Shown one piece after another: positions 296 through 57,271 of a DNA stretch of 64,000 nt; the stretch's first letter is position 1, and each line of letters starts with the position of its first letter. The position numbers and the translations under genes are program-made. Location: the NCBI RefSeq assembly GCF_040807025.1, contig NC_090952.1, forward strand, positions 7,084,001 through 7,148,000, given 5' to 3'. Origin of the DNA: Struthio camelus (taxonomy: Eukaryota; Chordata; Aves; Struthioniformes; Struthionidae). The notes under the pieces are model-generated. The model made no database searches. It had not been told where the DNA came from and saw nothing but the letters and a program-made list of their open reading frames with translations.

Positions 296-352
296 CAGTG
301 TTGGCTTCATAGTCTCCAATAAATCTTTTTGTGAGAAAGCGCACAACCAGGG
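296..352 (-). CDS. RASL11A: RASL11A coding exon 2
   Basis: A 57-base exon between acceptor TTTTACAG (360-353) and donor GTGAG (295-291). Joined to exon 1 it reads ALVVRFLTKRFIGDYEANTG, with the last Gly codon split. This is the switch I/effector region and is nearly invariant in RASL11 proteins. It is too short to have been found as an open frame on its own. Confidence 0.88.
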
Positions 353-1943
353 CTGTAAAACAATCAAAAAAAAAAAGGGTCTTTAATGTAAACCAAAATC
401 AATCTTTGAAGAACACATGTAATACCTTACTGGAAGAGTTAGTATAATGGGAAATCAAGTTAATCTTGCTATTGCTCACACATTATTCTGCAAACGCCTC
501 TCTCTGCACTCAAAAAAAACAGATTTGGGGCCAGGGTGTGACATCCTAGCACAGCATTTTTGGCAACTTGTATTGTAAATGGTCCCTTAGATTCAGTTAG
601 GCTAGTCAATGTGGGTTACGGAGTACTGTTTGTTATGATTGCAGATATAACAATCTGACCCTTGGTATAAGATAATTCAGGAAAAAAATAACGAAGCAAA
701 CCCTTACAATCCTGAAACTGATCCCAATACCAAATTTAAGATGTCTGTGTCAAGTAAGAAGCAAGACTGATGGATCTAATGGTTCTTCCCAGGCTTAAAA
801 ATCCTCAGTCGTCCTCGTGAAACACATTAGTGATACCTAGTCGCATCCACCAAACAAACTGCATGTGCTACACGCAGAGGGGTCATGCTGCAGTGCTCTG
901 TGCCTTCTTTTTCATCTTAACCAGTGGTGCTTTCATACACTCTTGGATTAGAACATTTTCCTTATTCTTGATCTCTTATAAGACTTAAAGTCCCTTCGTG
1001 GTGATAGGAACTTACATTTCTACAGCGTCCTCATCTCAGCAGATCTGCCATCGTTTACAAAACCACGCAGCTAATATCTAAATAAAAAGCTTTTTTCTGC
1101 AAACAGGTCTATCATAGGCGTCTTCTATAAAAATCATTTTTCTCATGACAGGTACACAGTCACCTCTTTGGTGCCCTTAAATGAAATCGACAGCGTAGGT
1201 ATCTTCAACAAGTTACTTAAAACTGATGTGAAAATGTGGCTGCTTCAAATCCAAACAACGAAATGTTTTCCTGAGTGCTGTGGAACCTCAGATGTAGTAA
1301 AATAAAATCTGGCCTTAGTCATTTCTGAAATCATAAATCATTACATTCAAAAGTGGTAGCGCTCCCTTTATCCTTTAGCCTCCTTTCCTCTCCTCTCCTT
1401 TAGAGAATGATATGGAAAAATACATTTTGTGCACTGTTATTTGTCCACAGAGCATAAAACATTTACAACAGGAGAATAAAAATCCCCCCTCTCATTTTTG
1501 CGTGCAGAAGCTGAGACATATAGTTAAATAATTTGCCCGGGACCAGAGTGTCACTTGTGAGTGCAGAGCTCCCAGCACGGTGCCCTGTCCACTTAACTGC
1601 TACCTCGTGTTTGATCCAAGTCTGTATGACCAGCCAGCCTGCCTCACAAATTATCCAGTGCATTTTCAAAACAGCAACTTAAAATGTTTCAGCTGCTGCG
1701 GTTAAGCGTTTACACAGCCTTGGGTCTATCCGAGCTGTAAATTAGCCGCCAAGGACACGCAGGGAGCAAACAGCATGGAAGTACACCTGTGGACTTACCT
1801 GTCTTGCCAACGCTACTGCCACCCAGCACCACGAGCTTGATGATTTTGTTGGGCACGCAGTCTAGCACGGGATACTCGGGTATGGGAAGCAAGAGAAAGT
1901 TAGTAGAATACTGTGACATAGTATCCTGAGAGATGAGACGCAT
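296..1943 (-). CDS. RASL11A: RASL11A, Ras-like small GTPase (partial: coding exons 1-2 only)
   Basis: Coding exon 1 is 1799-1943 (48 codons plus one base) and exon 2 is 296-352 (57 bases); later exons lie outside the window. The P-loop GGSSVGKT is at residues 41-48, and exon 2 reads ALVVRFLTKRFIGDYEANTG, the switch I region of the RASL11 subfamily. Donors are GTAAGT after exon 1 and GTGAG after exon 2; the acceptor before exon 2 is TTTTACAG. Phases agree. The FLLLPIPE stretch and the NTG after switch I favour RASL11A over RASL11B, while VGKTALVVRF is shared with RASL11B. Family knowledge: RASL11A is a nucleolar GTP-binding protein that supports RNA polymerase I transcription and lacks the C-terminal prenylation box; that end is not visible here. 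The gene is divergent to USP12, as in mammals. A third RASL11 paralogue is possible. Confidence 0.85.
353..1798 (-). other. RASL11A intron 1
   Basis: A GT-AG intron of 1446 bases between the two recognised exons. I see no further exon, repeat array or RNA gene in it. Confidence 0.75.
1799..1943 (-). CDS. RASL11A: RASL11A coding exon 1
   Basis: The exon starts at ATG 1943-1941 and ends before the donor GTAAGT (1798 downward). It encodes residues 1-48 and ends with the P-loop; the final G is the first base of the next codon (Ala). A second in-frame ATG lies at 1919-1917 (MSQYST). Human RASL11A also has a short leader before its LLAPIPE motif, so the upstream ATG is preferred. Confidence 0.85.
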
Positions 1944-2179
1944 GCCAGAAATGAGAGCTGATCAACTGCCGTGGGAGTTGGGGGAGAAAAGAAGGAAAAC
2001 AGCTTCTCCGCCTCTTTTCTTGGCTGTAAATCCTTGGATAGAGAAGCCTTTTCATTTCATTTAAGTAGCTTTCCTGAGGAACGCTGGAGTGACTGGCCTC
2101 CTCTTCCCGGTGCCTCTGCTCAGACAGCAACTTTGGAAAGCGAAGGGAAACTTTTTGATCAGCCCCCGTGAAAACTGAC

Positions 2180-2300
2180 TCCTCCATTCCCCAGCCAATC
2201 ACAAGTGAAGCCATGACATTCCTCCGGCCGGGCACCGAGCGTGTGCCTCCACGAACCCCGCTCGCTCGCTCGCCCCTTTATCCGCCCCGCTGCCTCTTTT
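2180..2300 (-). promoter_or_regulatory. Probable RASL11A promoter
   Basis: On the minus strand this stretch carries a GC box (GGGGCGG, 2282-2288) followed by a TATA-like GGATAAAGG (2275-2283), and an inverted CCAAT box at 2195-2199. CpG density is raised at 2220-2290 compared with both flanks. A start site near 2250 would leave about 300 bases of 5' UTR before ATG 1943. No transcript evidence is available. Confidence 0.5.
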
Positions 2301-4300: not shown

Positions 4301-4309
4301 CTTGTTCCA

Positions 4310-4860
4310 AAGAGTGACAACACAGCTGACAGAAGCAGAAGTACTTTCGGGCAGCCATATGTTGTGCCAATGCTGAGGAACGTCAGAAGGATCTCAAAGA
4401 AGTGAGTGAGCATGCAGAAGGTTGGCAGATGAGCTTTAATATAGAGAAATGTAAGGTAAAGCATCCGGAGAAAAGTAATCTGAAGTATGCCTCAATGATG
4501 CTGAACTTGGAAGTGGCACTACAAATTAAGAAAGAGATCTTGGAGTCATCACTGGCAGTTCTCTGAAATCATCAGCGCTGCGCAGCAGCCACCAAAAAAG
4601 CCAACTAAATGTTGGGTATCATCATCTCCATCATGTGGAGAACAAGACAGAGGATATCATTTTGCTGCTACGTAAAACCTTGGAGTATCCACATCTCTAG
4701 CGCTGTGTGCAGTTGTCCGCTTCTCAAGGACATGGTGGAGTCTGAGAAGGTACAGAGCTGGGTAACTCAAACGATCGAGGGGATGGAGAAGCTGCTTTAT
4801 GAGGCGAGGCTCAACAAGCTGTTCACCATGTGCTTGTACGGATGCCGGTGCTGACACAAG
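4310..4860 (+). mobile_element. Old CR1-type LINE fragment (3' part of ORF2)
   Basis: The segment carries word after word of the end of the CR1 reverse-transcriptase ORF in decayed form. Examples are GGCAGATGAGCTTTAATATA near 4424, GAGATCTTGGAGTCATCACT near 4533, AAAAAAGCCAACTAAATGTT near 4591 and CAAGACAGAGGATATCAT near 4643, ending in an Arg/Leu-rich stretch near 4795-4830. The frame is broken by stops and indels, so the copy is dead. Identification is from memory of the CR1 consensus in reptiles and birds; exact ends are uncertain. Confidence 0.65.
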
Positions 4861-6533: not shown

Positions 6534-6867
6534 TTCCAGATTGCAGACCGTCCCCGCCGCCCCGGCAGCGCGGAGCAGACGCCGTGGGAAGGACAGCGTG
6601 GCCGTGGGAGCCTCGCTGCGGGCCAGCGACGCACACAGAGCCCAAACCTCTCGGCCTCCTAAAAACAGGGCCCCCCTCGCCGGCTCGGCCGGGAGGAACC
6701 TTCTGTGCGGGGCCGGGCCGGACCCGGGCCGGGGGGGGCCGCCGGGGCGCGGCGCGGCGCGGAGCCGGCGCCGTTTGTGCGTCGCACCGCCGGCGCCCGG
6801 CCCCATTTGGCGGTTGCGCCACCTGCGGCTGCGGCTGCCGCTGTCAGTTGGGCGGCTGGGTCGCAAC

Positions 6868-6936
6868 ATGGCGCCGGCGGCAGCGGGGGCGGCGGCCGCG
6901 GGCAGCGGGGCCGCGCCGGGCGGATGGACATACTGA
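6868..6936 (+). CDS. Upstream ORF overlapping the USP12 start codon
   Basis: ATG at 6868 has a strong context (A at -3, G at +4) and opens a 22-codon Ala/Gly-rich frame that stops with TGA at 6934-6936, ten bases beyond the A of the USP12 ATG (6924). It is in a different frame from USP12. The USP12 ATG itself has a weak context (C at -3). If the transcript includes this ATG, most scanning ribosomes should be diverted, with USP12 depending on leaky scanning. The peptide has no recognisable domain. Confidence 0.45.
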   Translation: MAPAAAGAAAAGSGAAPGGWTY

Positions 6937-6971
6937 TGACGGTCCGCAGGCTCGCTTCCATCTGTACCATG
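6924..6971 (+). CDS. USP12: USP12 coding exon 1
   Basis: Sixteen codons, [16 protein letters not shown], followed by donor GTGAGC at 6972. Human USP12 starts MEILMTVSKFASICTM, which fixes this start. Phase 0 at the junction. Confidence 0.92.
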
Positions 6972-18900: not shown

Positions 18901-21900
18901 GGGATGGTGTGGTATGAGGGAAGGCACCAAGTCCCAAGTGGGAGCTCAGCTCTAAGGTATTGGTGGACAAAAAAAGAGGAGAAAATGGAAAGAGACCACT
19001 TTAGATTTGAGGTGGACAAAGTTAAAATTAAAACTGGAATATTGGTACGCTTTAGTTTCTCTTCTCTGGGTTAAGTAAGACCGTATGGATGTATGGTGGT
19101 ATTTCTCAGTCATATCTAGGGTTCTGTCCTCATTACATTGCTGGAGACTCAGGGACATATTCAGAAATACGCCGTAAGCTTAATACGTAAGAGTAGCAAA
19201 GCCGAAGTGAATTGAACTTAAGTAATGTCTAATACAGTTCTTCTTTCTGTTCTTTTTGTCTCTTTCCTAACTATGCTTTCCAGAAAAAAAGGTCAGAAAG
19301 TGATAGGATTTCTGATGTAAAGTAGCATTAAAGGCAAGAAGTTTTTCAACGATTCTTTATACATGATAGAGATGCAAACAGTGAACGCAAGAGTTTCTTT
19401 CTCTTCGGCATGTTTTTGTAGCCCTTTATGATAACATTAAAAAGGGTGGACGTGGTTTACATTTCTTGGTATTTTTCTTTTGCAGTCTTTCTGTTGTACA
19501 GCTATAAAATTTGTTTTTTTGTCCTTGATAGTCTAAAAAGAATTTCATCAGCAACATTTATTTTAAAAAAACTGCAGCGACATTAGAAAATCTAATGAAA
19601 ATGAAGTTAAATTCTAATGCTAATGAAATTCTAACAGGTACTCAAAGCATGTTGAAATATGTTTAGGAAAAAAGCCATTTTTTTTCTTTCACGGAATTTT
19701 AAGCCTAGGTGTTTTTGGTCCTCCAGATTTAGAAGTTCTCTCTGTGTGTCTTATAAGTTTCTTTATTTTTATAATGCATACTTCACTGAACTTAAGTTGT
19801 CATTTCTATGTCACTGTGAATAACCTGAAATCTTAACTGAGAACAACTTTCTTATTATTAATTTTCAAATAAATTCAAATGCAGAAGACCCTTCTGATGG
19901 ATCTAATAGTACTCTGCTGCAATTCAGGCTGATGAAGTAGGGCTTTTTGTCTTGTTTTATAAGTGAAACTGTGGTACCTTTTATAATAGTAAATAACAAG
20001 TCTCAGATTGATTACATTTTCAAGAACGCAGATAACACTTTAAATGCTGATTCTCCATGGAAGTAACACCTTTTCTTGGCTTTTTTGTTTCTGTGGGAGG
20101 CGTATGGATTCAGCTGGATGTTTTTTAGGAAGATTTTTTTCCCTCTAACATAACACACGTTTTCTTCTTTGCAGGGCGCCAATGCCTCTGCTTTGGAGAA
20201 AGAGATTGGTCCTGAGCAGTTCCCAGTGAATGAGCATTACTTTGGCTTGGTCAATGTAAGTGAATTTTCTTTGCTTTAAGTGCTGTTTTCCTATTTATAT
20301 CCTAATGATAATAAATTCAATTTGGAATAAATTCAAAATCCTAATTTTGAATTTAACAGGATTCTCTTTCAGAACTTTTTCTCTGGGCACTCCTGACACA
20401 AAGTGGGAATGTGCAGAGACACCGCATCCTGCAATGTGATGCTATGCCTTGTCGCTTATAACCAATATATACATCTTATTTTAAATACTAAAAAAGAAGT
20501 ATATTTTTAAATTAAAAAGTCTTTGAGATAAACCTTCATACTTGGGCACATTTCCAGTTATAGGATTATAATACAAAGCTGAAAGGAACATTAATAAAGT
20601 GCAAATGCTGTTAGAGCGTGGTTTCTGCTCCTTTTAGAGCAAAGATATTTGATGTTACACTGATATTCAATGTATGTAAGCCTTGAAGTTTTTAAACCAA
20701 AACGCATTACTTCTCTAAAAACATACTACTTGTGGAATTCATGGATGTTCTTCTACATGAAGACATAGCCAAGAGATAAATGACGTTTACTTGGCTGATA
20801 ATTTTCTAACATGTAGAAATACCCCCTTTTTTACTGCCTCGTATACCAGTGAGTCCTTTCAAAATGATTTTTTTTGATCTGTCAGTTTGCGTACATCTGA
20901 CTTGACTAGGATCTGTTGGGCAATAAGAGTTGTCTGTTTAAATTAACCATGGAAAGAATGGAGCATTGGTGCAATATCGCCTCTGCTCCTGGAGGAGAAA
21001 GGCGGCTGTTGCTTTTGTTGCCAATGATGCTATATAAGAAACGAGATATAGAAACAGTGATTCTGTATCATCCCATTTATGATGTGAAAATACATTTTTG
21101 GCAGAACTCGCTATAAACCCAGATACTGTTTCTGTTTACTGGTCGTCTAGGCCCATTTCATGGAAAGCTGAAGAACAAAATGATCTACCTTTTGACATAC
21201 CAAGTAAGGTTAACACAGCTACTAAAGTGTTATTTATTGCAGTGCATTAGAATTCATTTCATTGATTTCTGTGTGTCTCTAGCAGTTTGTGTTCTCAGAC
21301 ACCAAGCTATCTAAAGGCATTGAATTATGTTCCTTAAGTATGGTGTTAATGGCCATTCCAAAGCTTCTGAGGTTTGCACCATAATGAGAAAAATGGAAGG
21401 CATCTCCAATTGCAACATAAATAGCATAGTGATGAATACTGTGAAGAAAAAAATAGTATTCTAAAAATAACCAGAGTTACTTTACCCACATGCATACTCT
21501 GTTTAGAAGGACAAAATATGACTAATAGTGTTGTGCTTTATTTCTTGCGATGAACTTCTCGGGGATAATCATTTTCCTGCTGCTGTTCTGGAGAACTTTT
21601 TCCTGAGTTATTCCTAGCTCTTTAATGAGCTGAAACGAATTGGAGAGCTTTAAAGAATGTAATTTCATGCCATCCAAATGCAAGCCTGCTGCGCAAAGCA
21701 GTCCCACTTTACTCCTCGTACAGGTATTGCCACTCGTGTTTCTCCTTTACATCAGGACTGGTACCTGTGCTGAGCACACGCTAAAGGTGCTGAACCCAGG
21801 ACCGGTTTTCTGAAGGGCTAGATTTCTCTTTGGATCAGTGAGCTGAACCAACTTGCCTGCAGTCAAACGTTTGCTAGAGCCACCGCAGGGTCTATGTTGC

Positions 21901-24900
21901 GGGGGGAAGGGTCTGACCGTTTCTTTTGACATCCTGTCGTTAAAATGGAGTGTGTGTGGTGTGAAACAGCAGTGTACCAGGGATGGAACAATGCTTTTAG
22001 TTCTAGAATTTGGTCTTGCTTTTCAATTTTAAAAACTTTTGCCTTAGAGTGAGTCTTCAAACTTTAATTTTACATGGAAAGTGTAACGTTTTTTGAAATT
22101 AGATTATATTGACTCTAAATACAATCAGTTTTAAGCAAAAAAATTTTTGGCACCTGTTTGAAAAACTTATTTATACCAGAGAAACCGTGACAAAAAGAGT
22201 TGTTAAAACTTACGTGTTGGTACCTGCTTTTTCCTTTGTACTTTGGGTCACGTAGACCATATACACGTGAATTGTCTGTTTGATCTGTGCTTGTCGCTCT
22301 AGGATTGCAGATATTCAGCCTACTGAGACTTGCCATGCCAACCTCTCTTTTTCAGCCTGTTTTTTCTGGGTTTTTTAATCCAAGACAAATGGTCACATCC
22401 CTCTTTTTCCAGCAAAATTAAGGTCGTGACTGGGAAGACCTGACTACGTTGTATTTCCGAATGCAAGCAGATTGAAGTTAAAATTGTAACGCTGCTGTCT
22501 AATAACTTTGTTTATTTTGGAGAACTGTCTATAATGCAGAGAAGGGTAAATCAGTAGTTGATTTACTCAAAAGTTTGAGCGATTCAAGGCCTTGCGAAAG
22601 TTAGTAGGATTTTGTTCTAACATTGAAAAAGCCAGAATTTCTGAATTAAATGCGTCACATGGTCTTTTTGCAAAGTACGTGGCGTGTGGTGACATCTAAA
22701 ATGTGAACAGGCAAGATAGGGATCGGAGGAAGAAAAGTTCTTCCCCGTTACTCCGTTATGTAGCGATAGGAACAAGCAAAGCAAGCTGAAATACTGTTTA
22801 GAAGGACATTTGTAAAATTTAAAACTTTCCATAAGGTATATTATTTGTCATATCACTTCAAGACTGCTACAAAGCCTCCTGCATCTGACGGTCAGAAGTT
22901 TTTAAAACTATTTGGACTGAACTTTAACTCTTCCGTTTGGTTTTCAGAACGTCTCGGTGGGTAACATCAAAGCTGTACATGTACAACTGATGAATTTCTT
23001 ACCCTTTGACGTGTTTTCTCCGTAAATACAATCCTAAAATCTCACCGACTGCTTACTTTGTAAACTTTTTGACTTAAGGAGCACCATGACCTCCCAGGTT
23101 TTTTTAACAAGGTTAATTACTAGTTTCTTGTGTCTCTTAAAATTATTTTCTGGGATTATTATAGACAAATATATTAGATATGATTGTTCCAAGACAAAGC
23201 GTCTACTCATGACAGATCTTCACTCATTTTCGTACTTCTCTTGCTTATTTTGTCTTGCATGCAAATCTAATTACTGTGATGTTTATTCCATTTTTTAGGT
23301 CACTAATAAACATGAATTCGGTTCTGTCCTAATTCACATGCTCAGCTCGTATATTTGTTTTGCTCATGTGAATAAGTTTTGACTGTTGTTCCGTGTTGTT
23401 TGCATATGGTAAAAATTAATGTTAATGTATGTGTAAGGCTGTAACCTTTTGAGCTGTGCGAGTTAAACTCTTAATTTTCTGTTTCTCTCAGTCAGCAAAC
23501 TGATTATTAACTTGCAGTCATTCTGCTACAGTAATTATACCGAATTCTGGTGAACGCTAGTGTCCGTATTCTCTGAGTACTGCTTAATATGATTATCCGT
23601 GTTCTGTGATCAGATTATTTGTATGTTTATTTTGTTTATTTTAAATATTTTGCCCTCAGTGCGCTTAAGATACAGAAGCGCGTTACCAGAGTACCTGGGG
23701 ACTGGCAAACCTAAAATCCCAAAACCCGAAAACGTTTTTGAAGCAACAGCATTGTACAGTACAGTTGCACAATAAATTGCAGAGAGGAAACTCAAGCATG
23801 CTGTATTTCTTCTAGATGATACGCAGCTTTAGGTGATTTTTCAGTGGTTTAAGCGTTAGTCCTTGTTAAGCAATCTGGAACGCCGCCTCTGGAAGCGGTG
23901 TTATCGCTGGCCTCCTCTCCGCAAAATGACGCTGCCTTCAGATAGGGCAGATGTCAAACAGCTGCTCTTTGCATTTGCCTGCATCATGTGCTTTTCATAA
24001 GATTTCATTGTAAACAGGAAGTATTTAACATGCACCTTGCTAGCTAATCTCAAAAAGCTAATTTTGCTATCTGACGCAGGCAAATCTAAAACACGAGTTA
24101 ATGCCTTGAGCTCCTGTTACCGTAATGTAATTGGGAGGCAGAGATGCGGTGATGCTGATGGATGCTGTCTGCCCGCTCTCCTGTTTGCCTGTCCCTGAGT
24201 TGCGCTGTGTCGCTGGCACCTTTCTGCATCAGTGGCAGCAGGATCCGCCCTGCCCAGGCCTGGCAGCCTGCTGTGTCTCCAGAAGTTTTGATTCTGTGCT
24301 GAGCCCTTAATTGGCTTTTGCTTATGTCAGTGGTTTCCCGTTTTATTTGTGCGTGTCACCGTTGTGACTACTGTCTTCCCTTCCTTTTCTTGCTGTTTCT
24401 GGTTGTGATGAAACAAGGACGAGTCTTTTGGTGAACGTCTACTAGTATTTCCCCCAAAAATGAACTTTGGGAGATGATTTTCCCATTTGTAATATACGGC
24501 GTTTTTCATGAGCGACCTCTTTCTTTTGTTTCTTTTTAACAGACCTAATATGAAAATGTTTGTTTTCCCTTTGTTCTGTTTTAACCAGTTCGGCAATACC
24601 TGCTACTGCAACTCAGTCTTACAGGCACTTTATTTTTGTCGTCCATTTCGGGAAAAAGTTTTGGCATACAAAGTGCAGCCCCGAAAGAAGGAAAGCCTCC
24701 TGACATGCCTCTCTGATCTCTTCAACAGTATCGCTACGCAAAAGAAGAAGGTGGGAGTCATCCCACCCAAGAAATTTATTTCCCGATTGAGGAAAGAAAA
24801 TGGTAAATGAGTAAATGAAATCCTCATGCAGATGTAAACGTTGAGTATTTAAGCATATTAAAATGTGGCCACAATTTTCTTTTTAAGTGAGTCCAAACCG

Positions 24901-27900
24901 TCAAGTTTTAACAGATTTCTGAGAGATTTTTGAACTCCAGTTTGTGGTGTGAATTTCACCACCTCTGTGGCATAGGAAGAGCGATTATATCAGAATTAAC
25001 TGTGCTCTGTCATAGAAGGATTATCTAGATGTCTTTGTGTACCGAAATCTCAGTGCTCCAGTTATTCTGTGTTGGCATAATGAACTCTGGAGGTCTGCTG
25101 CAAGTCTGCACGCTGTGGGTTGTGCCAGAAGTTATCAGGTGCCAGTTAGACCTCGCACAGTTGGTCAAAATTAAAGTCTCTGAGGAGACTTATGTACTTT
25201 TAACCTCCTTTCTTACATTTGTGGTAGTATGAATACTTTATGATGAGAATTGGCGGTTATTTCCCAGGGCTAGTTTGTGAAGGAAAGTGCTATATGTTGA
25301 TTTATCATCTCTGTTTGGACTCGAAAAGGTAACAGACTTATGTTAATGTGGGAATTTTTGCGCCTTGGTGCTGGACTTAATGAACTGACGGCCCAAGGCA
25401 ACGCATATGAATTTCTTTATTTCTCCCCTTCTCACCAAGGGGAAGAAAGGCACGGTTTTCTTCTGTTCCAAGCAGTGCCCGAAGTTTCGTTTATATAATC
25501 TTTCAGCTATCTGTCTGTTTGTTGCAACCTGAGAAATAAGTAAGAGTAATCTAATATCCGTTGCTAGGACCACAGCAGCGTACCCCAAAATTTTGAGAGT
25601 CATATAATAGAGTAGAGAAGGGGAAAGGGCATGCACAGTAACTTGATATTTTAAAGCATCTGTGTTTTTCCATTTTTCCCTGTTCTTTTCCTTTCCAGAA
25701 TTATTTGATAATTATATGCAGCAGGATGCACATGAGTTCCTAAACTACCTACTTAACACTATTGCTGATTTACTACAAGAAGAGAAAAAGCAGGAGAAGC
25801 AGAACGGCAAACTCCAGAATGGCAGCATCGAGAGTGAAGAAGGAGACAAGACTGATCTGACGTGGGTCCATGAAATCTTCCAAGGAACACTAACCAATGA
25901 AACCAGATGTCTTAACTGTGAGGCTGTACGTTTAAAACAAAACAAAATCTCTTTAGATTTTTTTCACAGGTTCTGGATCGTTTTCCCTAATACTAAGCAC
26001 ACTTTTTCATTTATTAGGATAGATGAATTTGCACTCTATTAAAATATGGAGCATAGCGTATTTTATGACTATCACCTCTATGTTCAAACCAATGCTCATT
26101 AAGGTATGTTTCTCAGAAAAAGCATAGTGTTTTTTCTATTCCTCCTCCCTGTTTCCATCAAGGCAGTCTGCACCTGGCTGATATGAGCTGCCTTTTTGTC
26201 TTCATGTTATTTTTTGTGTCAGTGATTGATAGTTTATGTTGTGTTTATACATGAGAGTTACTCACTATTTATTTAACTCTGGGATTAACTGAATTTAATG
26301 ATTCTTAAAATGAAAGTCTGTGCTTCTTGGTGCTGATCCATAGCCACTCTATTTGACAGCAAGAGAAGTGCCAGAAGTCTAAAATTAGAAGAACCACACC
26401 ACCTTCAGACCAGGAATTTGTAGTTAGTCATGTGCTGCTTCGATTAAATAATATTTCGGAAAGAGGGAAAAAAAAAGAAAAGGGAAGAAAAACCACACAG
26501 ATGGGGAGAGAAGAAAAGAGAAATGATTACAAATGAAGCGACTACTCTTGGCATTTTAAATCTAGAATTATGGCTATATGGTGAATAGAAATTCTAAAAA
26601 TGGCATTAGTTAGATTCTGTCTCAAGAATTCTGAGATTAAATGTGCCTGTTCCACAAATGGAAAGATGTTTTCTAACCCATCCTAGGATTTAAACGAAAA
26701 CCCAGCTGTTTCTGCGTTTCATATAAGATCTGCTGTTAGACTCCGAAATGCAGCAGAAAGCTATATTAGTCTTCAAAACAGTGGAACAGTTAAAGCTTCT
26801 CCAGCTCTGAGAGCTCTCAGTGGTAAGAACTTGTTTTTGCCAGTGAAGTAAGCAGATGTGTCTTGAAGGCTCGAGAGGGAGAGATATGTTTTGCAAGGAA
26901 GGCTTTATTTTCCATTTTTTTCCTGTTTATTTTCTTTTTTAAGATATTCCATTTTGGATTATAACTACACATCAGATTATTTGTTCACTTTTAGTTTTCT
27001 TCAAGAAAGGACCTCTGTGTGTATTTGTAAAAATCACACATCTGTCTGTTTGCAAGCAGGACATTGCACTATTCCAGGAGCTTAAAGCAATTCTAAAACC
27101 TGCCAGATTCCAAACTGTTATGAAATATTTCTTCTTATTTTTTTTTTCAAGGTTAGTAGCAAAGATGAAGACTTTCTGGATCTATCGGTTGATGTGGAAC
27201 AAAATACATCAATTACACACTGTTTAAGGTAAATGGAAATGTTGTGGGGTGGAGGAAAAAACTGCACTTGGTCAGAAGGGAAGAAGCTGAGTTAGTTGCT
27301 CTGTTGTGCAACAGTTGCAGAGTGTTGTTGATGTTATCTTTATCATGCTTATTGAGTCTGCTGTTTTCTTGGTGTTTACTAAAAGATAACCCAGACTTTG
27401 GCTAGTCAATGGCTGGTGGTTATAGGTTCTAAAATTTCATGTCTAGCACCAAGTAAAATATGGAATGGAAGCAAAACCTATTACCTTATTGCTGTGTCTT
27501 GTTTGATTCCTCTCTAGAAACTAGTTGGTGTTCTGGAGAGAGTCGTTTCCAGCTTTTTCTAGTTGAGCGTTGATAGCACAGCCCAAGACTGAGACAAATG
27601 CAGCTTAGAAGCATTTGGGAGATATGAGCGATGTGAATAAGAGGGATTTCATTTTCTGTGTGTACTGTTTTCTCGGCCGTATTAGGAATAACTTTAAACG
27701 GGATGGTCTGACTGAATATTCCTGCCTATTTGACTTTTTTTTCGCCTTCATTTCCACAGAGGGTTTAGTAATACTGAAACTCTGTGCAGTGAATATAAAT
27801 ACTATTGTGAGCAGTGCCGCAGTAAACAGGAAGCACAGAAGAGGTAAGGTTTAAATATTTGGGCTAATGTAAATGTTCTCTTAATATATGAGTCAAATGT

Positions 27901-30900
27901 GAAATCAGTAAAAAGATGCAAGACTACTTAGGTCTGTGTTTGGCGGGGAAGGAGGGTAAGGAAAAGTATCTCTATGGAGAAAACAGGTAACTGTAGCAAC
28001 CTTACCGGAGAGAAATGGAGGGGTTAATTTAATATTCCTCTCTGTGGTGCTTCGAGACATACTTTTTCTCGCCCATTAGCGTTAATCAGCTCAAAGCCAC
28101 TGAAGAGAATCCTCCCTGCTTTCTCCGAGCACTATATGCAAAAATCTTACTTGGCAGGAGCTAGAGCGCCAAGACGGAGATTTATTCCATCCCCTTCTTT
28201 CCCTTGATATGATGACAAACAGCTGTTCTGCAGTCAGATATCAGTTACGTTATTAATCTTTCCAAGTAAATGTTGCCCATTCTCACCAAAACATACATGA
28301 GAAAGCAGCCTTTTAAAAATCTTCATCAGCTTTTTAGATGGGTTTTAAGAAGCTTCTTCAAGACCATATTGAAATAGTTTTAGAACAAAGCTCTGTTTTA
28401 GGTGATCTGCTAATACCTTGTTCTTTGTTTAACCTATTTTTATGGTTCAGAATGAGAGTGAAAAAGTTGCCCATGATTCTAGCTCTGCACTTAAAAAGGT
28501 TCAAATACATGGACCAGCTGCATCGATATACCAAACTCTCCTACCGTGTAGTCTTTCCCTTGGAGCTCCGGCTCTTTAACACTTCAGGAGATGCTACAAA
28601 TCCTGACAGAATGTATGACCTTGTGGCTGTAGTTGTTCACTGTGGCAGGTATGTCTCTGTGCTTTCTGGACCTTAAAAGCCTTTCCTTGACGTTTAAAGC
28701 GAGTCGGTCATTCGTATGCTATTGTATGACAGTACAGTGGCTGACAATATGGGAGTATGCTGAGCAGCATCAGAGCTGTTTGTCTGAAAGTATTTAGAAT
28801 ATATATTTACTTAGCAACACTTTAAATTTTGCTTTCAGAGCACACAGTCGCAGGCTTGCTCTTTTCTCAGCTCTCAGATGTGCTGGCGATTCAGACAAGT
28901 TGTGTCTGTGAGCCTTAGGAAAGTAAGAGCAGTCTTAAAAGTACAAAAACAAAAAAAAACCCCTGCTTTCCAGGAAAAATAAATGAAATAAAAACAAATT
29001 TTGGAAAAGCACTGACTAAAATAGAATTAATTTATAGATCCCTTGTTGCCACTTGCTAAACCATTAAAGGTTTTTTTAGAAGCTAGCGCCACCAAGTGGA
29101 ATAAACAGTGTACTGCTTTTTTTTAAAATAACTTTATACCCTTTATAGGGCTTGGTTAAAGCCTTTTTTGTTATAGTGGTTTTAATTCTGTTTGAATATC
29201 AAAGAAGAACAAAGATTAAGCACTTTTAAGAAAAAAGCAGTCATGGAGGTCAGAAAAAATGTTTACATCTGCCTTTTGGAACAGTGAATTTCAAAGTCAC
29301 AGGAAGTTGCTGCAGCATGCAGAAGTGTTTTGAAACATCTGTATTGCGAGGAATGACAATAGGATCAACACGCTGGTGTTGCGTAGATTTAGCACAAGTA
29401 AGCTATGCAATTCTAACTTGTTTCTGTTGTGTACAGTTGTGCTATTTTTGGATTTATTTTTACCGTATTAAGAATCCTTCCTGTGCATTTTCTATAGATT
29501 CTTAATTTGCTACACCTGTAACTATATTTTTGTTTTAGCAATGTAAAGAAGTGGCGATTAATAACGTTAAATGTGTTAGGTGTGTGGCTTAGCTTTTTGT
29601 TCTCAAAGCTGTTGACTTGTATGATGAGGCTTTTAGGGGTCCCATGTGACTCTTCTGCTTTTAATTCTTACGAAGAACTTACCAAAGACTTTAGATGTTG
29701 TTTTCCAAGTAGATGAGTTTTCAGAACTTATTTAAAATATTTTGTTTTCTTAATTTTACTTTTCATTTACTGACTCTAAACCAGTTTAGTTCTGTGACAG
29801 GTATTGTGTTTAAGTACATCAATAATTCTGAAAACTAGAGAAGTAGCATAAAGGCCATATAAATGTATCTTGTTTTAAAGTCTTATTTAGCTTCTAAGCG
29901 AAAAGTAAAGCCAGAAAAATTAAAAGGAAAAATCTTTTTTTTCATTGTTTCTGAATTGTGCTCTCAAAGTTGGAGGTTAGTAGATGGAGAGCTCATGTTA
30001 TTCTTTGCATACCGTTTCTTATCCTAAACTAATACTTTTTTTAGGGCTGTCTGCCTGCCTTTACTCTGTCTATCGATCCTTCCCCCTTTGAGTTAGGTCG
30101 TTTTGTTGTCCTTTTGCATCAGGGTAAGCATTCAGGATGTAGGAATCAGCCTGGGAGACTGCCACAGGAACTAGGAGCAGCAGTCGCAGAAAGCCCATCC
30201 CCAGTCATCCACAGGCTGAGGCACGCTCAGTATTTGAAAAAAAAGTCTCCAGACAAGTTTGGCGTTTGCAAATAAAGTATTTCAACCAGTTATAATGGTC
30301 GAAATACTCAATAGTCATGAGTGTGACAAAACAGCGATTGAAATAACTGGTTTTTAATTATGTCTTTTGAAATATGTGAATGACTATCTGAAATATTTAT
30401 AAAATTGTATATTTTGACTTGAACGTATTTGGCAAGTGGCGAAGATGGAAATTTTAGTTCAAGCAATTTGGCAAAGTCTAAGAACCTAAACAGTCTTATG
30501 GGTGGTGTTAGACAACATTAAAAGATGGGGAATCTAACTCTGCCAGTAACAGCTGCAATCACTTGGGAAAGCAGTGGGTCCTGCCTCTGTAGGCGCAACA
30601 GTAATATATTTTCAATCCTTTTTCTGGCAGTGGTCCAAATCGTGGACATTATATCACCATTGTGAAGAGCCATGGCTTTTGGTTGCTGTTTGATGATGAC
30701 ATTGTAGAGGTAGGTATGCTTTTCCATAGTGAAAACGGTGTAGACAGCATCACTCTCCAGCTCCGTGGCTGGCAAACCAACCTGAAGGCTGTATTGACAG
30801 CTAAGACCTAGGCTGATGTGCGGCTGTTCAGTCTGAAATACTGCACGGACTTTGAGCGTATCAAATCTTTACATTTCTGCCTACCTCTAGGCGTCTTTGT

Positions 30901-33900: not shown

Positions 33901-35606
33901 TAGCAGTAGACATGCATTATGTTAATAAATTGTGTGGAAGTCCTAAAGCCCTCCCTGCAGTATTTCAACTTCTCTGAAGTCTTCAAATGGAGAGAGAAAG
34001 ACAAAGCAGCTGCTTTTTTTTTTTTTTTTCCCCCCAAAATTATTTTAACGGAAGGTGTCTGACCAAGCTATTCAAAGGAGAATTTTCTGCTGTTATGTCT
34101 TGGAGTTGATACATCTTCTGGAAACTTACTGACTATGCCTATTTTTCTCATATGCAGTGCTTCAAAAGGGATAGGGAAAGAATGGCCTAAACTTGCAGGT
34201 TGTTTGACAGTGCCACTTAAAAAAACCAATGCTTTTGGGTTTGCTGGTGATGCTAAAGTCCGCTCAGTGAGCAGGGATTCAGCATGCTGCCAAGTGGATT
34301 CTGCAGCAGAGGAGGCTCTTTGAAGGAGCCATAGCGTGGTCCCTTCCTCTGAAATGTAGGCAGAGGTTGGTCTCTGCTGCTCCCTCTCCCAGTCAAAACA
34401 GAGGAGTTCTTTGATCATCCCAGTGTCTCTCTAATATTCTGAACTTTTTTTTTTCCTTCCTCAATTTTATTCCTTGGGGAATAAAAGGAGAAGTTGCTTT
34501 GCTAATTCCAGGCCAGTCTCCCATTGGTCCTCCACATCAGTGTCGGGCTACTTCAGCCGATCGTTTCTGTGGATCCAGAGTCTTAAAGGTGTTTTAAAAT
34601 ATTAAAACACAGTGGGCTGCTGAGTAATACAGGTCATTGCGAGTGTTTTATTTCAGTGCTTCAATCTCTGCACTTGCTCTCCCCTGATCGCAGAATCAAA
34701 TTCAGTAATGTGAAACCAGCCGTTCTCAGGAGTTGGATCAAGACTGTAGAACTTGCATCTTTAAAACATAACGCTCTATGGGCCTGGCTTCTTGGCGTAT
34801 AAAATGAAAAACTGCTTTTCTGCACGTATTCACAACTTTAAATGTAAAGAAGTCGTTTATTTCTGTTAATATGAAGAACAAGTTATTTATCTTAAAGCAC
34901 CAACCTTGTGGTGATGTTCTCGTCGGCATTGTACTAGCAAATCCGAACGCAAGGAAAGCGCTCATAAAACCAGATGATTGTCAGATGTGGTCCACATGTT
35001 TTATGGTACAGTTAGTAGCTGCTGTTGCAGGACTTCCCCACGTAAGAGGGCCGCAAGATCTTTAAAATCTAAAGTTACTTTAGCTGAATGTTGAATATGC
35101 TCACAAAGGTCCTTATGTACTCCCAATTATGCAATAATTTTCTTTGCTGATCTTTAACTGTTTTTCATCTACATTGCAGACCTATAGCTGGGAAAGGTAA
35201 CTCCAATGTGAACGAGGAGGCAAAAATAAAAAACATCATGCAAATTTTTGGGAATACACTTTTATGAATCCCTTTGCCATAGTCCCTCTTAAGAGTGTAC
35301 CGCTTCTGAGAAGGTTTTTTTGTCTTGATTTCTTTTTTTCAATATTTCATAGTTAATAAGCAGGGAAAATGCTTGTTCTATCATTTTATTATTACTGCAT
35401 GGCTTTCCAGCATCACCCCCAGAAAACTGAAAGTAATGTTTGGGAAAGGGATTCTTAAAGTGGTGTTTTGTCTGAGCCTAATTTTAACTCTCGTTAATTT
35501 TCAGAAAATCGATGCGCAGGCCATTGAAGAATTCTATGGGTTAACATCAGACATTTCCAAAAACTCAGAATCTGGATATATCCTCTTCTACCAGTCGAGA
35601 GACTAA
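6924..35606 (+). CDS. USP12: USP12-type ubiquitin carboxyl-terminal hydrolase (nine coding exons, 369 aa)
   Basis: Joining exons 6924-6971, 20175-20255, 24589-24802, 25699-25925, 27152-27228, 27760-27843, 28451-28648, 30631-30709 and 35505-35606 gives an unbroken 369-residue protein, against 370 for human USP12. All introns are GT-AG with matching phases. Catalytic Cys48 sits in [15 protein letters not shown]; the QQD box [12 protein letters not shown] is at 118-129; zinc-binding pairs are C185/C188 and C232/C235; catalytic His316 is in [11 protein letters not shown] with the Asp in FDDD (331-333). Known role: a cysteine protease removing ubiquitin, activated by WDR48 (UAF1) and WDR20, with reported targets including histones H2A/H2B and signalling proteins. 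Several residues match USP46 instead ([30 protein letters not shown]), while others are USP12-specific ([18 protein letters not shown], final SRD). It may therefore be a USP12-like paralogue rather than USP12 itself. Confidence 0.93.
6972..20174 (+). other. USP12 intron 1 (13.2 kb)
   Basis: GT-AG intron from GTGAGC (6972) to TTCTTTGCAG (20174). The first 300 bases are the downstream shoulder of the CpG island; the rest is AT-rich. I found no coding exon, tandem array or convincing mobile element; the open frames inside it are short and unrecognised. Confidence 0.8.
20175..20255 (+). CDS. USP12: USP12 coding exon 2
   Basis: 27 codons, beginning [16 protein letters not shown] and ending FGLVN, between TTTGCAG and GTAAGTG. 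Matches human USP12 residue for residue as I remember it, including the USP12-type GANAS and FPVNE (USP46 has GTNAS and FPINE). Confidence 0.95.
20256..24588 (+). other. USP12 intron 2
   Basis: A 4.3 kb GT-AG intron, AT-rich, with no recognised internal feature. Confidence 0.8.
24589..24802 (+). CDS. USP12: USP12 coding exon 3 (catalytic Cys box)
   Basis: 214 bases between TTAACCAG and GTAAAT. It starts [20 protein letters not shown], with the nucleophile Cys48, and ends FISRLRKEN plus the first base of the next Glu codon. Differences from human USP12 include AYKVQ, LSDLFNS and FISRL. Confidence 0.95.
24803..25698 (+). other. USP12 intron 3
   Basis: A 0.9 kb GT-AG intron with nothing recognised inside. 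Confidence 0.8.
25699..25925 (+). CDS. USP12: USP12 coding exon 4 (QQD box, first zinc pair)
   Basis: 227 bases between TTTCCAG and GTACGT. It carries [19 protein letters not shown], then an acidic linker ([15 protein letters not shown]) that is the most diverged part of the protein and one residue shorter than in human USP12, then [19 protein letters not shown] with the first zinc-binding Cys pair. Confidence 0.95.
25926..27151 (+). other. USP12 intron 4
   Basis: A 1.2 kb GT-AG intron; purine-rich near 26460-26520. No feature recognised. Confidence 0.8.
27152..27228 (+). CDS. USP12: USP12 coding exon 5
   Basis: 77 bases encoding [18 protein letters not shown] and TSITHCL, ending with two bases of an Arg codon. 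The acceptor has a long T tract and TTCAAG; the donor is GTAAAT. No in-frame ATG, so it is invisible to a start-to-stop scan. Confidence 0.93.
27229..27759 (+). other. USP12 intron 5
   Basis: A 0.5 kb GT-AG intron; nothing recognised inside. Confidence 0.8.
27760..27843 (+). CDS. USP12: USP12 coding exon 6 (second zinc pair)
   Basis: 84 bases encoding [20 protein letters not shown] and then RSKQEAQKR, with phase 2 at both ends. C232/C235 complete the zinc finger. RGF and SEYK are USP12-type; EAQKR is USP46-type. Confidence 0.93.
27844..28450 (+). other. USP12 intron 6
   Basis: A 0.6 kb GT-AG intron; nothing recognised inside. Confidence 0.8.
28451..28648 (+). CDS. USP12: USP12 coding exon 7
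   Basis: 198 bases between GGTTCAG and GTATGT. It encodes [39 protein letters not shown] and [18 protein letters not shown], ending in VVVHCG plus two bases of a Ser codon. SGDATNPDR is diagnostic of USP12 versus USP46 (SSDAVNLDR). Confidence 0.95.
28649..30630 (+). other. USP12 intron 7
   Basis: A 2.0 kb GT-AG intron, AT-rich, with no recognised internal feature. Confidence 0.8.
30631..30709 (+). CDS. USP12: USP12 coding exon 8 (catalytic His box)
   Basis: 79 bases between TTTCTGGCAG and GTAGGT. It encodes [20 protein letters not shown] and FDDDIVE, with catalytic His316 and the acidic triad member in FDDD. ITIV and SHGFW are the USP46 forms (human USP12: IAIV, SHDFW). Confidence 0.95.
30710..35504 (+). 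other. USP12 intron 8
   Basis: A 4.8 kb GT-AG intron. It contains a long T-run followed by C-run at about 34013-34036 and otherwise nothing recognisable. Confidence 0.8.
35505..35606 (+). CDS. USP12: USP12 coding exon 9 (terminal)
   Basis: 33 codons plus TAA (35604-35606), after acceptor TTAATTTTCAG. It encodes [20 protein letters not shown] and [13 protein letters not shown]. The final Asp is the USP12 form (USP46 ends in Glu). Confidence 0.95.
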
Positions 35607-42140: not shown

Positions 42141-42164
42141 TTTAAAAAAACTGTTCATTTTCAG

Positions 42165-46400: not shown

Positions 46401-47056
46401 TTTTTTTAATAACGATTCTTTTCTCCAAGCTCGGTTTTTCCCCCTCCAAAAACACAGACAACCTTCCTCACTGCTAGAAGGCTAATTAAATTATTGCTAA
46501 TCGTTATTTACTACAGCAGTCGCTCTCTCTGCCTTTCACCCTGCAAGATCTCAGCGCCTTTCTGTGGCTCGGTGAATCACAGCGCCGGGGAAAGGCAGTC
46601 GCGTCTGAGCACGGCCGCGGCAGCCAGCTAGGGCACCAAATAGAGCATGAGAGGAGGAAGAAACAACCCAAAAGGCATTTCTTTCTGAAGGAAAAACGTC
46701 CGCGCGCAACCTCGGCCCCTGAGAGCTGTGTTGACATAAGGGTATTACTGCAAGAGTGAACCAAGGTGTTGTAAAAAGGGTTTCTTTGGATCAGCAGAGC
46801 AGCAGAGCTTAGTAACTTGGAGCAACGTTGTCTGGATGGGAACAATTCCACGGAAGGGACAAGGAAAAAGCCTCCCCTTGGTGTGACCTGCTGGCAGCAG
46901 AAATCAGGAGGAGAAGTCAGAGCTAGCCTTCAAGCTGTAGGGCTGCCTCTGACCTCCCGGTACGGGTCACGCCTGGGCGGCTCTGCTGGCACTGTGGCTT
47001 CAGCAGCATGGGAACATCGTGGCGGCTTGTCATTGCCTCAGCTTATCCACGCTGGT
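46401..47056. other. Intergenic with homeodomain-core cluster
   Basis: At 46480-46505 a short AT-rich stretch contains TAATTAAATTATTGCTAAT, several homeodomain cores together, at the edge of the CpG-rich domain. The remainder up to the minisatellite shows nothing recognisable. Confidence 0.35.
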
Positions 47057-47533
47057 GGGGTCCTGGCCCCATGCATGAGCCAGCGGGGCCCTGTCCTCAT
47101 GCGTGCGCCAATGAGGTCCTGTCCCTGTACACGTGTGCCAGTGCGGTTCTGTCCCCAAGCATGAACCACTGGGGTTCTGCGCCCACAAACATGCAGTTGG
47201 GTCCTGACCCCATGCACACACCAGTGAGGTCCTGACCCCATGCATGCACCAGTGAGGTCCTGACCCCATTCATGCACCAGTGAGGTCCTGACCGCATGCA
47301 TGCACCAGTGATGTCCTGACCCCATGCATGCACCGGTGAGGTCCTGACCCCATGTACGCACCAGTGAGGTCCTGACCCCATGTACGCACCAGTGAGGTCC
47401 TGACCCCATGCATGCACCGGTGAGGTCCTGACCCCATGTACGCACCAGTGAGGTCCTGACCCCATGCATGCACCAGTGAGGTCCTGACCGCATGCATGTG
47501 CCACTGGGGTCCTATCTTCACACATGCGCCAGC
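47057..47533 (+). repeat. 28-bp minisatellite, 17 units
   Basis: Head-to-tail units of 28 bases beginning GAGGTCCTGACCCCATG; 477 bases in all. The middle units (about 47196-47475) are nearly identical and the first five and last two are degraded, typical of array edges. Variants alternate ATGCATGCACC and ATGTACGCACC and the A/G in CACCAGT or CACCGGT, showing unit-block duplication. Because 28 is not a multiple of three and no minus frame has a stop, all three minus frames stay open; no gene is implied. Confidence 0.95.
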
Positions 47534-54854: not shown

Positions 54855-54964
54855 CGTGTGCGTGCGCGGGTGTGCGTGTGTGTGTGTGCGCCTGGGTGTG
54901 TGAGCGTGAGTGTGTGTGTGTGTGTGCGTGCACCCCCTCGTGCCTGCGGGTGTGCGTGTGGATG
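54855..54964 (+). repeat. Imperfect (TG)n microsatellite
   Basis: Broken runs of GTGTGTGT mixed with GCGC and GAGC, about 0.8 kb upstream of the candidate TATA box of the receptor gene. Alternating purine-pyrimidine sequence of this kind can adopt Z-DNA. Confidence 0.85.
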
Positions 54965-55048
54965 TGGAGCAGGGAGCCAGCCTTGTTGTTATTCTGATCA
55001 CAGCGTCTCTGATTCACAGACTTGGATCATGAATACAAGTGAAGACTT

Positions 55049-55056
55049 TGACGTCA
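55049..55056 (+). promoter_or_regulatory. Consensus CRE palindrome TGACGTCA
   Basis: A perfect eight-base cAMP-response element inside a block of balanced composition (about 55000-55160) surrounded by GC-rich DNA. It lies 627 bases upstream of the candidate TATA box. CREB/ATF proteins bind this palindrome; binding here is an inference. Confidence 0.5.
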
Positions 55057-55682
55057 GAGTTGAGATTTATCAGCAGATCCAATGGGGCAGGAATATTAAG
55101 TGCAAGTCGATGCCAGCTATCTGCCAATGTTATTAGCGATGCTCACCGAGGAATGAGGCTTAACACCAAGGACTGAAAGGACTGGGAAGGAGGAAAGGAA
55201 AAAAAAAAGGGGGCAACAAAACGGAGGAAGCAAGCTGATCCTCAAGCGTTAAAGCAAGGTAAAACAGCAACGGGCGGCGTTCGTGCGTGCCCTGTGCCGG
55301 CTGCGTGTGCCGGGCGGCGGGCAGCGGGCCCTCCTCGCAGCTCACCGAGCGCCGGCGGCGGTGGGCAGTGGCCGGGCTGGGGGCCGGTGGCCTCCGCGCT
55401 TGCGGAGGGGACGGGCTCCGCCGGAGCACCGCACCGAGCCGGGCTGGACCTTTGCAGCCGGCGATGGAGAAGCATCTTTGCAGCCAGCGTTTTACAAAAG
55501 GGAGGAAGAGACGGGAAAGTTAACGTAGCCTTATCTCCAGCCGCTGCCTTCTCATTTCATCAGCGACTCCGCATACATGCGAGGGCTGTCCTATTAATAG
55601 TATTTATTTTTACGCGCCCCACGCACAAAAAAAAAAAAGGGAAAGAAAGGGGTGAGGGTGGGGGATGTGGTGCCTTTTGTGC

Positions 55683-55692
55683 TATAAATAGG
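55683..55692 (+). promoter_or_regulatory. Candidate TATA box of the GPR12-like gene
   Basis: TATAAATAGG flanked by GC-rich sequence, about 490 bases before the coding exon. It would direct a start near 55713-55720, giving a short non-coding first exon, spliced to the acceptor at 56173-56174. The matching donor could not be chosen among several weak candidates. Confidence 0.45.
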
Positions 55693-56172
55693 CGGCGAGG
55701 TAGCCTTGCGCCGGGGAAAAGCGGAGGAGAAGGTGTAGCCGGGCTTTGCCGGAGAGGGAGAAGCCGCTTCCCGCGGCGTGAGCGCTGGGACGGGGCGGGT
55801 GGAGGCGCCTGCGGCTGCCCCCGCGCAGCGGCGCGGAGCCGTGCGCTGGGGCGGCCGGGGGGGGGGGGAAGCGTAGCCCGGGGAGGGGGCCTGGGGGAGC
55901 GGGGCGGGCGGGGGGGGGCTTTTTCCCAGGGAAGCTGCAGCCGGGCCGGGCCGGGGGGAGGCGGCTGGGGATGCGCTCGGCGGCGGGCGCGGCGCGGAGC
56001 GGTGCGGAGCGCGGTGCGGGACGCGGGGCGGGGGGGTGCGGAGCCCGGTGCGCGGCTCGGTGGGAGGGGGGTGGGGGCAGCTCGGCGGGGCGGAGACCGG
56101 TGCGCAGCCCGGAGCGGGGCGCCCCGGAGCCGCCCGGCGCCCCTCACCGTGGCCCGCTCTCCCTTTCTCCCC

Positions 56173-56174
56173 AG
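56173..56174 (+). other. Splice acceptor before the GPR12-like coding exon
   Basis: The AG ends an 18-base pyrimidine-rich tract three bases before the first ATG. Human GPR12 likewise has a non-coding first exon and its whole coding region in the next exon. This argues against the longer open frame that begins at 56036, which would be intronic. Confidence 0.65.
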
Positions 56175-56197
56175 CGATGCTGCACGGCCCCGCCGCC

Positions 56198-57271
56198 ATG
56201 GGGGAGCCGTGGCAGCCGCAGCCGCAGCAGCAGCGGCTGGCGGGGCCCAGCAACGCCTCGGTGCCCAGCGCCGGGCCGTCGGCGGCGGGCTGGCCGGGCA
56301 CGGCGGCGCCGGGCGGCGGCGGCGGCGGCGGCGGGAGCGGCGGCGGCGGCGGCGGGAGCGGCGGCGGCGGCGGCGGCGGCGGCGGGGCCGTGAGCCCCTG
56401 GGACATCGCGCTGTGCGCCACGGGCACGGCGGTGGCGGGCGAGAACGCGCTGGTGCTGGCCGTGCTCTTCTACACGCCGAGCCTGCGGGCGCCCATGTTC
56501 CTGCTCATCGGCAGCCTGGCGCTGGCCGACCTGCTGGCCGGGCTGGGGCTGGTGGCCAACTTCGCCGTGCGCTACCTGCTGCGGCCGCCCAGCGAGGCGG
56601 CGGAGCTGGGCGCCGCCGGGCTGCTGCTGGCCGCCTTCTCCGCCTCCGTCTGCAGCCTGCTGGCCATCACCGTGGACCGCTACCTGTCGCTGTACAACGC
56701 GCTCACCTACCACAGCGAGCGCACGCTGGGCTTCACCTGCGCCATGGTGCTGCTGATGTGGCTGCTGTGCCTCGGCGTGGGGCTGCTGCCCCTCCTGGGC
56801 TGGAACTGCCTGCGGGACCAGAGCGCCTGCAGCATCCTGCGGCCCGTCACCAAGGACAACGCGGCGGTGCTGGCCGTCACCTTTCTGCTCCTCTTCGCCC
56901 TCATGATGCAGCTCTACCTGCAGATCTGCAAGATCGCCTTCCGGCACGCCCAGCAGATCGCCGTGCAGCACCAGTTCATCGCCACGGCCCAGGCCACCTC
57001 CACCCGCAAAGGGCTCTCCACCCTCTCGCTCATCCTGGGCACCTTCGCCCTGTGCTGGATCCCCTTCGCCATCTACTCCCTGGTGGCGGATTCCAGCTAC
57101 CCCGCGGTCTACACCTACTCCCTGGCCCTGCCAGCCACCTGCAATTCCCTCATCAACCCCATCATTTACGCCTTCAGAAACCCAGACATCCAGAAGTCGC
57201 TGTGGCTGGCCTGCTGCGGGTGTATCCCTTCCACCTTCTCCTCCAGACCAAGGACATCCAGCGATGTGTGA
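56198..57271 (+). CDS. GPR12: GPR12-like G protein-coupled receptor (GPR3/6/12 family), 357 aa
   Basis: A single-exon class A receptor. A good acceptor (CTCTCCCTTTCTCCCCAG, AG at 56173-56174) precedes two in-frame ATGs, 56177 and 56198; the second sits in a perfect Kozak context (GCCGCCATGG) and is chosen. The N-terminus has one sequon (N19-A-S) and a 25-residue Gly/Ser run (39-63). Then come SPWDIALC, TM1 with GEN (81-83), TM2 Asp111, ITVDRYLSLY (DRY 160-162), GWNCLRD before Cys211, CWIP (286-289), NPIIY (320-324), palmitoylation-type CCGC (339-342) and C-terminal SSDV. As in this family, the TM3 cysteine (3.25) is missing. LRAPMFLLIGSLALADLLAG, TYHSERT and CCGCIPS point to GPR12 over GPR3 or GPR6. 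Known role: constitutive Gs activation raising cAMP in neurons and oocytes. Its distance from mammalian GPR12 suggests it may instead be the GPRx-type fourth member reported in frogs. Confidence 0.9.
   Translation: MGEPWQPQPQQQRLAGPSNASVPSAGPSAAGWPGTAAPGGGGGGGGSGGGGGGSGGGGGGGGGAVSPWDIALCATGTAVAGENALVLAVLFYTPSLRAPMFLLIGSLALADLLAGLGLVANFAVRYLLRPPSEAAELGAAGLLLAAFSASVCSLLAITVDRYLSLYNALTYHSERTLGFTCAMVLLMWLLCLGVGLLPLLGWNCLRDQSACSILRPVTKDNAAVLAVTFLLLFALMMQLYLQICKIAFRHAQQIAVQHQFIATAQATSTRKGLSTLSLILGTFALCWIPFAIYSLVADSSYPAVYTYSLALPATCNSLINPIIYAFRNPDIQKSLWLACCGCIPSTFSSRPRTSSDV

Follow-up and report, generated by a model that had tools for sequence, protein, structure and literature searches.

The closest described relative of the locus analyzed here is the gene cluster that has been linked to the origin of the X-inactivation center (XIC), the so-called proto-XIC. 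According to the text of PMC2430539, its frog order is Cdx4, Chic1, Fip1l2, Lnx3, Rasl11c, Uspl, Wave4, Slc16a2, and Rnf12, and chicken, whose region was taken from chromosome 4, is said to keep both the order and the orientation. The same text traces JPX back to Uspl, FTX to Wave4, and parts of XIST to Lnx3, and describes a diverged remnant of Rasl11c between XIST and JPX. The first two of these pairs also appear in the text of PMC3695352, and Duret et al. (2006), as cited in PMC2430539, paired JPX with Rasl11c and FTX with Uspl. In PMC5577775, JPX is stated to be derived from USPL (one sentence there gives the pairs in another order), and two further paralogue clusters are already noted. Here, we analyze 64,000 nucleotides of the Struthio camelus genome (C11:7084001-7148000, C11 being contig NC_090952.1; hereafter, the window), which carry a RASL11 gene, a USP12/46-type gene, and a GPR3/6/12-family receptor gene. 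The window is almost certainly the middle of an avian-type proto-XIC, i.e., Rasl11c, UspL, and the receptor GPR12L (also called GPR185 or GPRx), between Cdx4/Chic1/Fip1l2/Lnx3-type genes on one side and Wave4/Rnf12-type genes on the other.

Two lines of evidence carry this assignment, namely the gene order on C11 and the separation of the window genes from their paralogues. As neighbour queries, we used parts of WASF1 and CDK8, the FOXO1 and CDX2 domains, and parts of CHIC2, LNX2, FIP1L1, and RLIM. The Cdx4-Chic1-Fip1l2-Lnx3 side of the proto-XIC was matched in order over C11 6.914-7.027 Mb, and Rasl11c, Uspl, and Wave4 then follow in proto-XIC order over C11 7.077-7.171 Mb. More specifically, two CDX-type homeodomain exons (C11:6913613-6913768 and C11:6932559-6932717) are followed by CHIC (6.964 Mb), FIP1L (6.987 Mb), LNX (7.010-7.027 Mb, minus strand), RASL11 (7.077-7.086 Mb, minus strand), USP (7.091-7.120 Mb, plus strand), GPR (7.140 Mb, plus strand), WASF (Wave4; 7.164-7.171 Mb, minus strand), and an RLIM/RNF12-type gene (7.267 Mb, minus strand; 96% identity over the query part). 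The gene types and their order between Cdx4/Chic1/Fip1l2 and Rnf12 are, Slc16a2 apart, those described for chicken and Xenopus in PMC2430539, with the difference that here GPR12L lies between the USP and WAVE genes.

The familiar members of these families are found elsewhere in the same genome (1.45 Gb in 262 contigs, labelled C1, C3, C4, C11, C23, etc.). Genome searches placed RASL11A (200.908 Mb), RPL21 (200.918-200.922 Mb), USP12 (200.942-200.983 Mb), and GPR12 (201.127 Mb) on C1, and RASL11B (57.576-57.579 Mb) and USP46 (57.626-57.655 Mb) on C4, on which the receptor search returned no close relative. All five RPL21 matches in the genome fall on C1, between RASL11A and USP12, and none in C11:7064001-7148000. 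The initial annotation of the window, which had seen no RPL21 between its USP and RASL11 genes and had suggested a search for a second RASL11A-RPL21-USP12-GPR12 locus, is borne out on both counts. Two further receptors, named by best match and neighbours, are GPR6 on C3 and, at C23:6622702-6623559, an open-frame receptor of the GPR3 type. According to PMC8065388, chicken, quail, and turkey have probably lost GPR3; this genome differs in keeping such a receptor.

Phylogenetic trees were built from sequences of this bird genome and of human only; among the human proteins, those of USP12, USP46, and the GPR12 core agree by eye with solved-structure records. The window USP falls outside the pair formed by bird and human USP12 (support 99/98), and the approximately unbiased (AU) test rejects its pairing with bird USP12 (p = 0.002) as well as with bird USP46 (p = 6e-6). 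The window RASL11 is likewise a third lineage, its pairing with bird RASL11A (p = 0.033) and RASL11B (p = 0.0015) being rejected, and its tree on its own is weak. When RASL11, USP, and GPR were joined, with the receptor of the C4 lineage left empty or filled by GPR6 or GPR3, pairing of the window with the bird C1 locus was rejected in each version (p = 0.0005, 0.0012, and 0.0007, respectively), as was pairing with the bird C4 locus (p no higher than 3.6e-6 in any version). By USP, RASL11, and the joined data alike, the window genes split off before birds and humans diverged.

RASL11C lies on the minus strand, with exon 1 at 1799..1943 (positions are those of the window unless marked C11) and exon 2 at 296..352. 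Its spliced frame begins with the start codon in exon 1 (MRLISQDTMSQYSTNFLLLPIPEYP...GGSSVGKT) and continues left of the window through exons 3 (C11:7081858-7081776) and 4 (C11:7077742-7077275), with the gene ending 6.7 kb beyond the window edge. The frame is open, all inner exon edges have AG/GT, and the product is 250 residues long; the 242-residue form starting at the second Met was used in the trees and contains the Ras family domain (PF00071, E = 1.7e-30, Pfam). Like RASL11A and RASL11B, the gene has four coding exons, lacks a CAAX end, and is directed away from the adjoining USP gene (with RPL21 between the two on C1). It differs from both in an identity of only 51.5-57.0% to either and in the G3 motif encoded by exon 3, which reads DTPF where both paralogues have DTPG. 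By homology, Rasl11c should be a GTPase, and the DTPF motif could change GTP binding or hydrolysis, such that its nucleotide cycle may differ.

The nine exons of USPL extend over 6924-35606 on the plus strand: exon 1 with the start codon (6924..6971), exon 2 (20175..20255), exon 3 with the FGNTCYC motif (24589..24802), exon 4 (25699..25925), exon 5 (27152..27228), exon 6 (27760..27843), exon 7 (28451..28648), exon 8 with the RGHYITIV motif (30631..30709), and exon 9, which ends in ...QSRD and the stop codon (35505..35606). The spliced frame encodes 369 residues with AG/GT at all inner edges, and a UCH domain was found by Pfam. USPL is a USP-fold enzyme of the same nine-exon structure and size (366-369 residues) as USP12 and USP46, and it keeps the FGNTCYC, GHY, and FDDD motifs, which we take to be catalytic; by homology, it should be an active deubiquitinase. 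It nevertheless forms a separate lineage, with an identity of 91.6-92.1% to USP12 and of 90.4% to USP46, compared with 98.9% between bird and human orthologues. We defined 41 diagnostic alignment columns that separate bird and human USP12 from bird and human USP46 (four of them N-terminal and absent from USP46). USPL has the USP12 state in 21, the USP46 state in 12, and neither in 8, in keeping with the mixture of USP12- and USP46-specific residues that had been noticed in the window before. Elsewhere in the genome, a USP-family tandem array (presumably USP36/42/17-like, judging by its motifs) gave at least 61 first-exon matches, with at least 45 on C7 (C7:44390434-44946067), at least 11 on C182, and at least 5 on C235; its spacing on C7 is 11.8-12.8 kb (median 12.7 kb). 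In addition, several gene matches came in pairs with equal scores on C40 and C41, both large, as we would expect if they were a weakly degenerated pair of Z and W chromosomes, as in ratites.

An upstream open reading frame (ORF) of 22 codons (6868..6936, plus strand) runs out of frame across the start codon of USPL; its ATG lies 56 bases before that of USPL, and its stop codon ends 12 bases past the A of the main ATG. The distance from stop to main ATG is the same in USP12 on C1 of this genome, which shares the overlap, and the upstream ORFs of USP46 end before the main ATG. PMC5577775 describes the USPL/USP12 upstream ORF as associated with a TISU (translation initiator of short 5' untranslated region) element and as typically overlapping the main start codon out of frame, as is the case here, and derives the JPX ORF from it. 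A TISU-like initiation element, CAACATGGCGCC, is present at 6864..6875 (plus strand) and matches 11 of the 12 positions of the motif given in PMC5577775. This is the only place on either strand of the window with at least 11 matches; USP12 and USP46 reach 10.

The third gene, GPR12L, is an intronless receptor gene at 56177..57271 (plus strand) with an open frame of 364 residues, or 357 from an inner Met at 56198, and contains 7tm_1 (E = 1e-35, Pfam). The frog receptor GPRx is involved in oocyte arrest. The core of the window receptor shows an identity of 65.7% to its bird and 65.0% to its human GPR12 counterpart, close to the two thirds estimated in the initial annotation, and all four motifs listed in PMC8065388 (DRY, XWXP, NPXXY, and XXXWD) are present. 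The AU test rejects its membership in GPR3 (p = 0.006) and GPR6 (p = 0.0055), and the best tree places it beside the GPR12 pair (68/98). Given its place as the fourth family member next to GPR3 (C23), GPR6 (C3), and GPR12 (C1), the receptor is GPRx/GPR185/GPR12L, as had been proposed for the block. It resembles GPR12L of chicken and duck, as described in PMC8065388, in its single exon, its motifs, and its position as a fourth member nearest to GPR12; compared by description rather than by sequence identity, it is slightly longer than the chicken receptor (357-364 versus 351 residues) and has a glycine-rich N-terminus. In the same source, chicken and duck GPR12L raise cAMP constitutively, Gs/cAMP activity being constitutive in birds and zebrafish, and expression is mainly in brain in chicken and in brain and gonads in duck. 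The text of PMC6504862 names gar, fishes, coelacanth, amphibian, three sauropsids, one marsupial, and one monotreme as having GPR185, and it names no placental. For the receptor alone, linkage and this published occurrence in fishes would make the split, too, older than the bird-human divergence. The GC-rich stretch between USPL and GPR12L also holds a perfect (GAG)28.7 run (45542-45627) and a minisatellite (47055-47513, periods 28/56/84).

All three genes are intact, with open frames and intact inner splice edges, yet atypical in their identities, as first described, and other accounts of them need to be weighed. The window USP and receptor carry USP12 and GPR12 signature words, and their top solved-structure matches are USP12 and GPR12, as would be seen if this were simply the ordinary bird RASL11A-USP12-GPR12 locus in divergent form. 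That locus, however, already exists on C1, complete with RPL21 and with a USP12 and a full-length GPR12 that are 98.9% and 91.3% identical to human, which rules this account out and leaves it a practically negligible probability. A later segmental duplication of the C1 genes within birds or reptiles, followed by fast divergence, would explain why the window copies of all three genes resemble their C1 counterparts slightly more than the remaining paralogues, and the receptor on its own does allow pairing with bird GPR12. We consider it highly improbable, and as a recent event it is ruled out, because the AU tests on USP, RASL11, and the joined data reject the pairing with C1; moreover, C11 also has LNX-, CHIC-, FIP1L-, WASF-, CDX-, and FOXO-type genes, i.e., a whole paralogon rather than a copied fragment, and GPR185 is listed in gar and coelacanth (PMC6504862). 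Nor is it likely that the block is a relic, decayed or silent, that has survived by chance; the DTPF motif of RASL11C could be seen as a sign of decay, but the open frames and splice edges of all three genes, the 90-92% identity of the USP to paralogues that split off before birds and humans diverged, and the expression in brain and activity of chicken GPR12L (PMC8065388) make it extremely improbable.

Some observations weigh against the proto-XIC assignment itself. The receptor data alone do not reject pairing of GPR12L with bird GPR12 (AU, p = 0.09), and five of the six inner branches in the receptor tree have weak support, so that the expectation of trees separating all three genes from the ordinary clades holds for USP, RASL11, and the joined data but is not borne out by the receptor alone. 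The best tree puts RASL11C nearest to RASL11A (80/77), with RASL11B not rejected as the nearer lineage (p = 0.333). The C11 neighbours are named by their matches to the query proteins, and Slc16a2 was left out of the order comparison. One-to-one orthology would rest on gene order, on trees against bird and human paralogues, and on published texts.

The wider surroundings suggest how the paralogous loci may be related. On C1, the row reads CDX2-, LNX2-type, RASL11A, RPL21, USP12, GPR12, WASF3-, CDK8-, and RNF6-type; on C4, it reads CHIC2-, LNX1-, FIP1L1-type, RASL11B, and USP46. The WASF gene on C11 is a fourth one, located 22 kb past the receptor, right of the window, and the frame is open in both its N-terminal and its VCA part. 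The other WASF loci adjoin GPR12 (C1), GPR6 (C3), and GPR3 (C23), and in all of these pairs, like that of C11, WASF and receptor genes stand tail to tail. The LNX2 query had no match in C11:7064001-7148000, LNX sitting further left. A FOXO gene at C11 25.57-25.58 Mb is FOXO4-type by elimination, the other FOXO genes being on C1, C3, and C23. Human CDX4 and FOXO4 are located at Xq13; a correspondence of C11 to chicken chromosome 11 was dropped, since the CDX- and FOXO-type genes point to an Xq13-type paralogon. The two CDX-type homeodomain exons, 19 kb apart, could be a tandem duplicate of CDX4 or two genes.

Both C1 and C11 have LNX-RASL11-USP-GPR-WASF, and C3 and C23 have GPR-WASF (plus FOXO) without RASL11-USP. 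The simplest account, in our view, would be a single ancestral row that underwent two duplications and was broken between USP and GPR in the lineage giving C4, C3, and C23; the closeness of WAVE classes 1 and 2, and of 3 and 4, described in PMC3298513 fits it. RASL11C, USPL, GPR12L, and Wave4 would then be ancient ohnologues of RASL11A/B, USP12/46, GPR3/6/12, and WASF1/2/3, presumably stemming from the two rounds of genome duplication early in vertebrate history. Our trees differ on the order of these events: the window copy is nearer to C4 in the joined tree without a C4 receptor (inner branch 0.0042, starred 100/99) and nearer to C1 when GPR6 or GPR3 serves as that receptor. Since C4 and C11 share the linkage of CHIC, FIP1L, and LNX, this linkage probably predates the duplications, which probably counters the proposal in PMC2430539 that Fip1l2 was inserted in ancestral amphibians. 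More broadly, the paralogous rows suggest that the CHIC-LNX-FIP1L-RASL11-USP-GPR-WASF linkage predates the genome duplications, as opposed to the assembly in ancestral amphibians presented there.

The block itself is already known, Rasl11c and Uspl having been published. It is not a specialty of birds and reptiles, as the initial annotation had suggested it might be, having been described from frogs and, in fragmented form, from marsupials and monotremes. Its reading as a third genome-duplication copy lost in mammals holds as far as an extra ancient copy is concerned; the loss was not a simple one, given that published work has the eutherian remains becoming non-coding genes of the XIC. Here, the block would still encode two enzymes by homology, namely a Ras-like GTPase lacking a CAAX end and a deubiquitinase of the USP12/46 type, together with a receptor that, like the published GPR12L of chicken and duck, would be constitutively active and raise cAMP. 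Published work has the coding genes of the block decaying into the XIC in eutherians; GPR12L was probably lost in the same event.

In the text of PMC3298513, class-4 WAVE occurs among mammals only in opossum and platypus. As GPR185 has the same mammalian range, GPR12L shares the loss pattern of its neighbour Wave4. Words beginning with GPR are absent from the main texts of PMC2430539, PMC3695352, and PMC5577775, and the main text of PMC8065388 makes no mention of inactivation, WASF, LNX, or SLC16A2 (figures and supplements, including its synteny figure, lying outside the scope in each case). A search for X-inactivation center together with GPR12, in those spellings only and with Duret et al. 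(2006) outside its scope, found no paper joining them. The place of GPR12L inside the block between UspL and Wave4, with the mammalian loss pattern of Wave4, was thus not found in print, which is a lead and not proof of novelty. It is unlikely, as a whole, that GPR12L was a proto-XIC member between the JPX and FTX progenitors, was lost together with them, and left GC-rich remains in the JPX-FTX interval that may have supplied regulatory DNA. There is a good chance, on the other hand, that GPR12L/GPR185 belongs to the proto-XIC as a coding gene that has been overlooked, and that it was lost in the same eutherian decay. The locus joins two literatures that we did not find joined, that on the orphan receptor GPRx/GPR185/GPR12L and that on the origin of the XIC, and it adds GPR12L as a candidate to the genes whose loss in eutherians accompanied the rise of Xist, Jpx, and Ftx.

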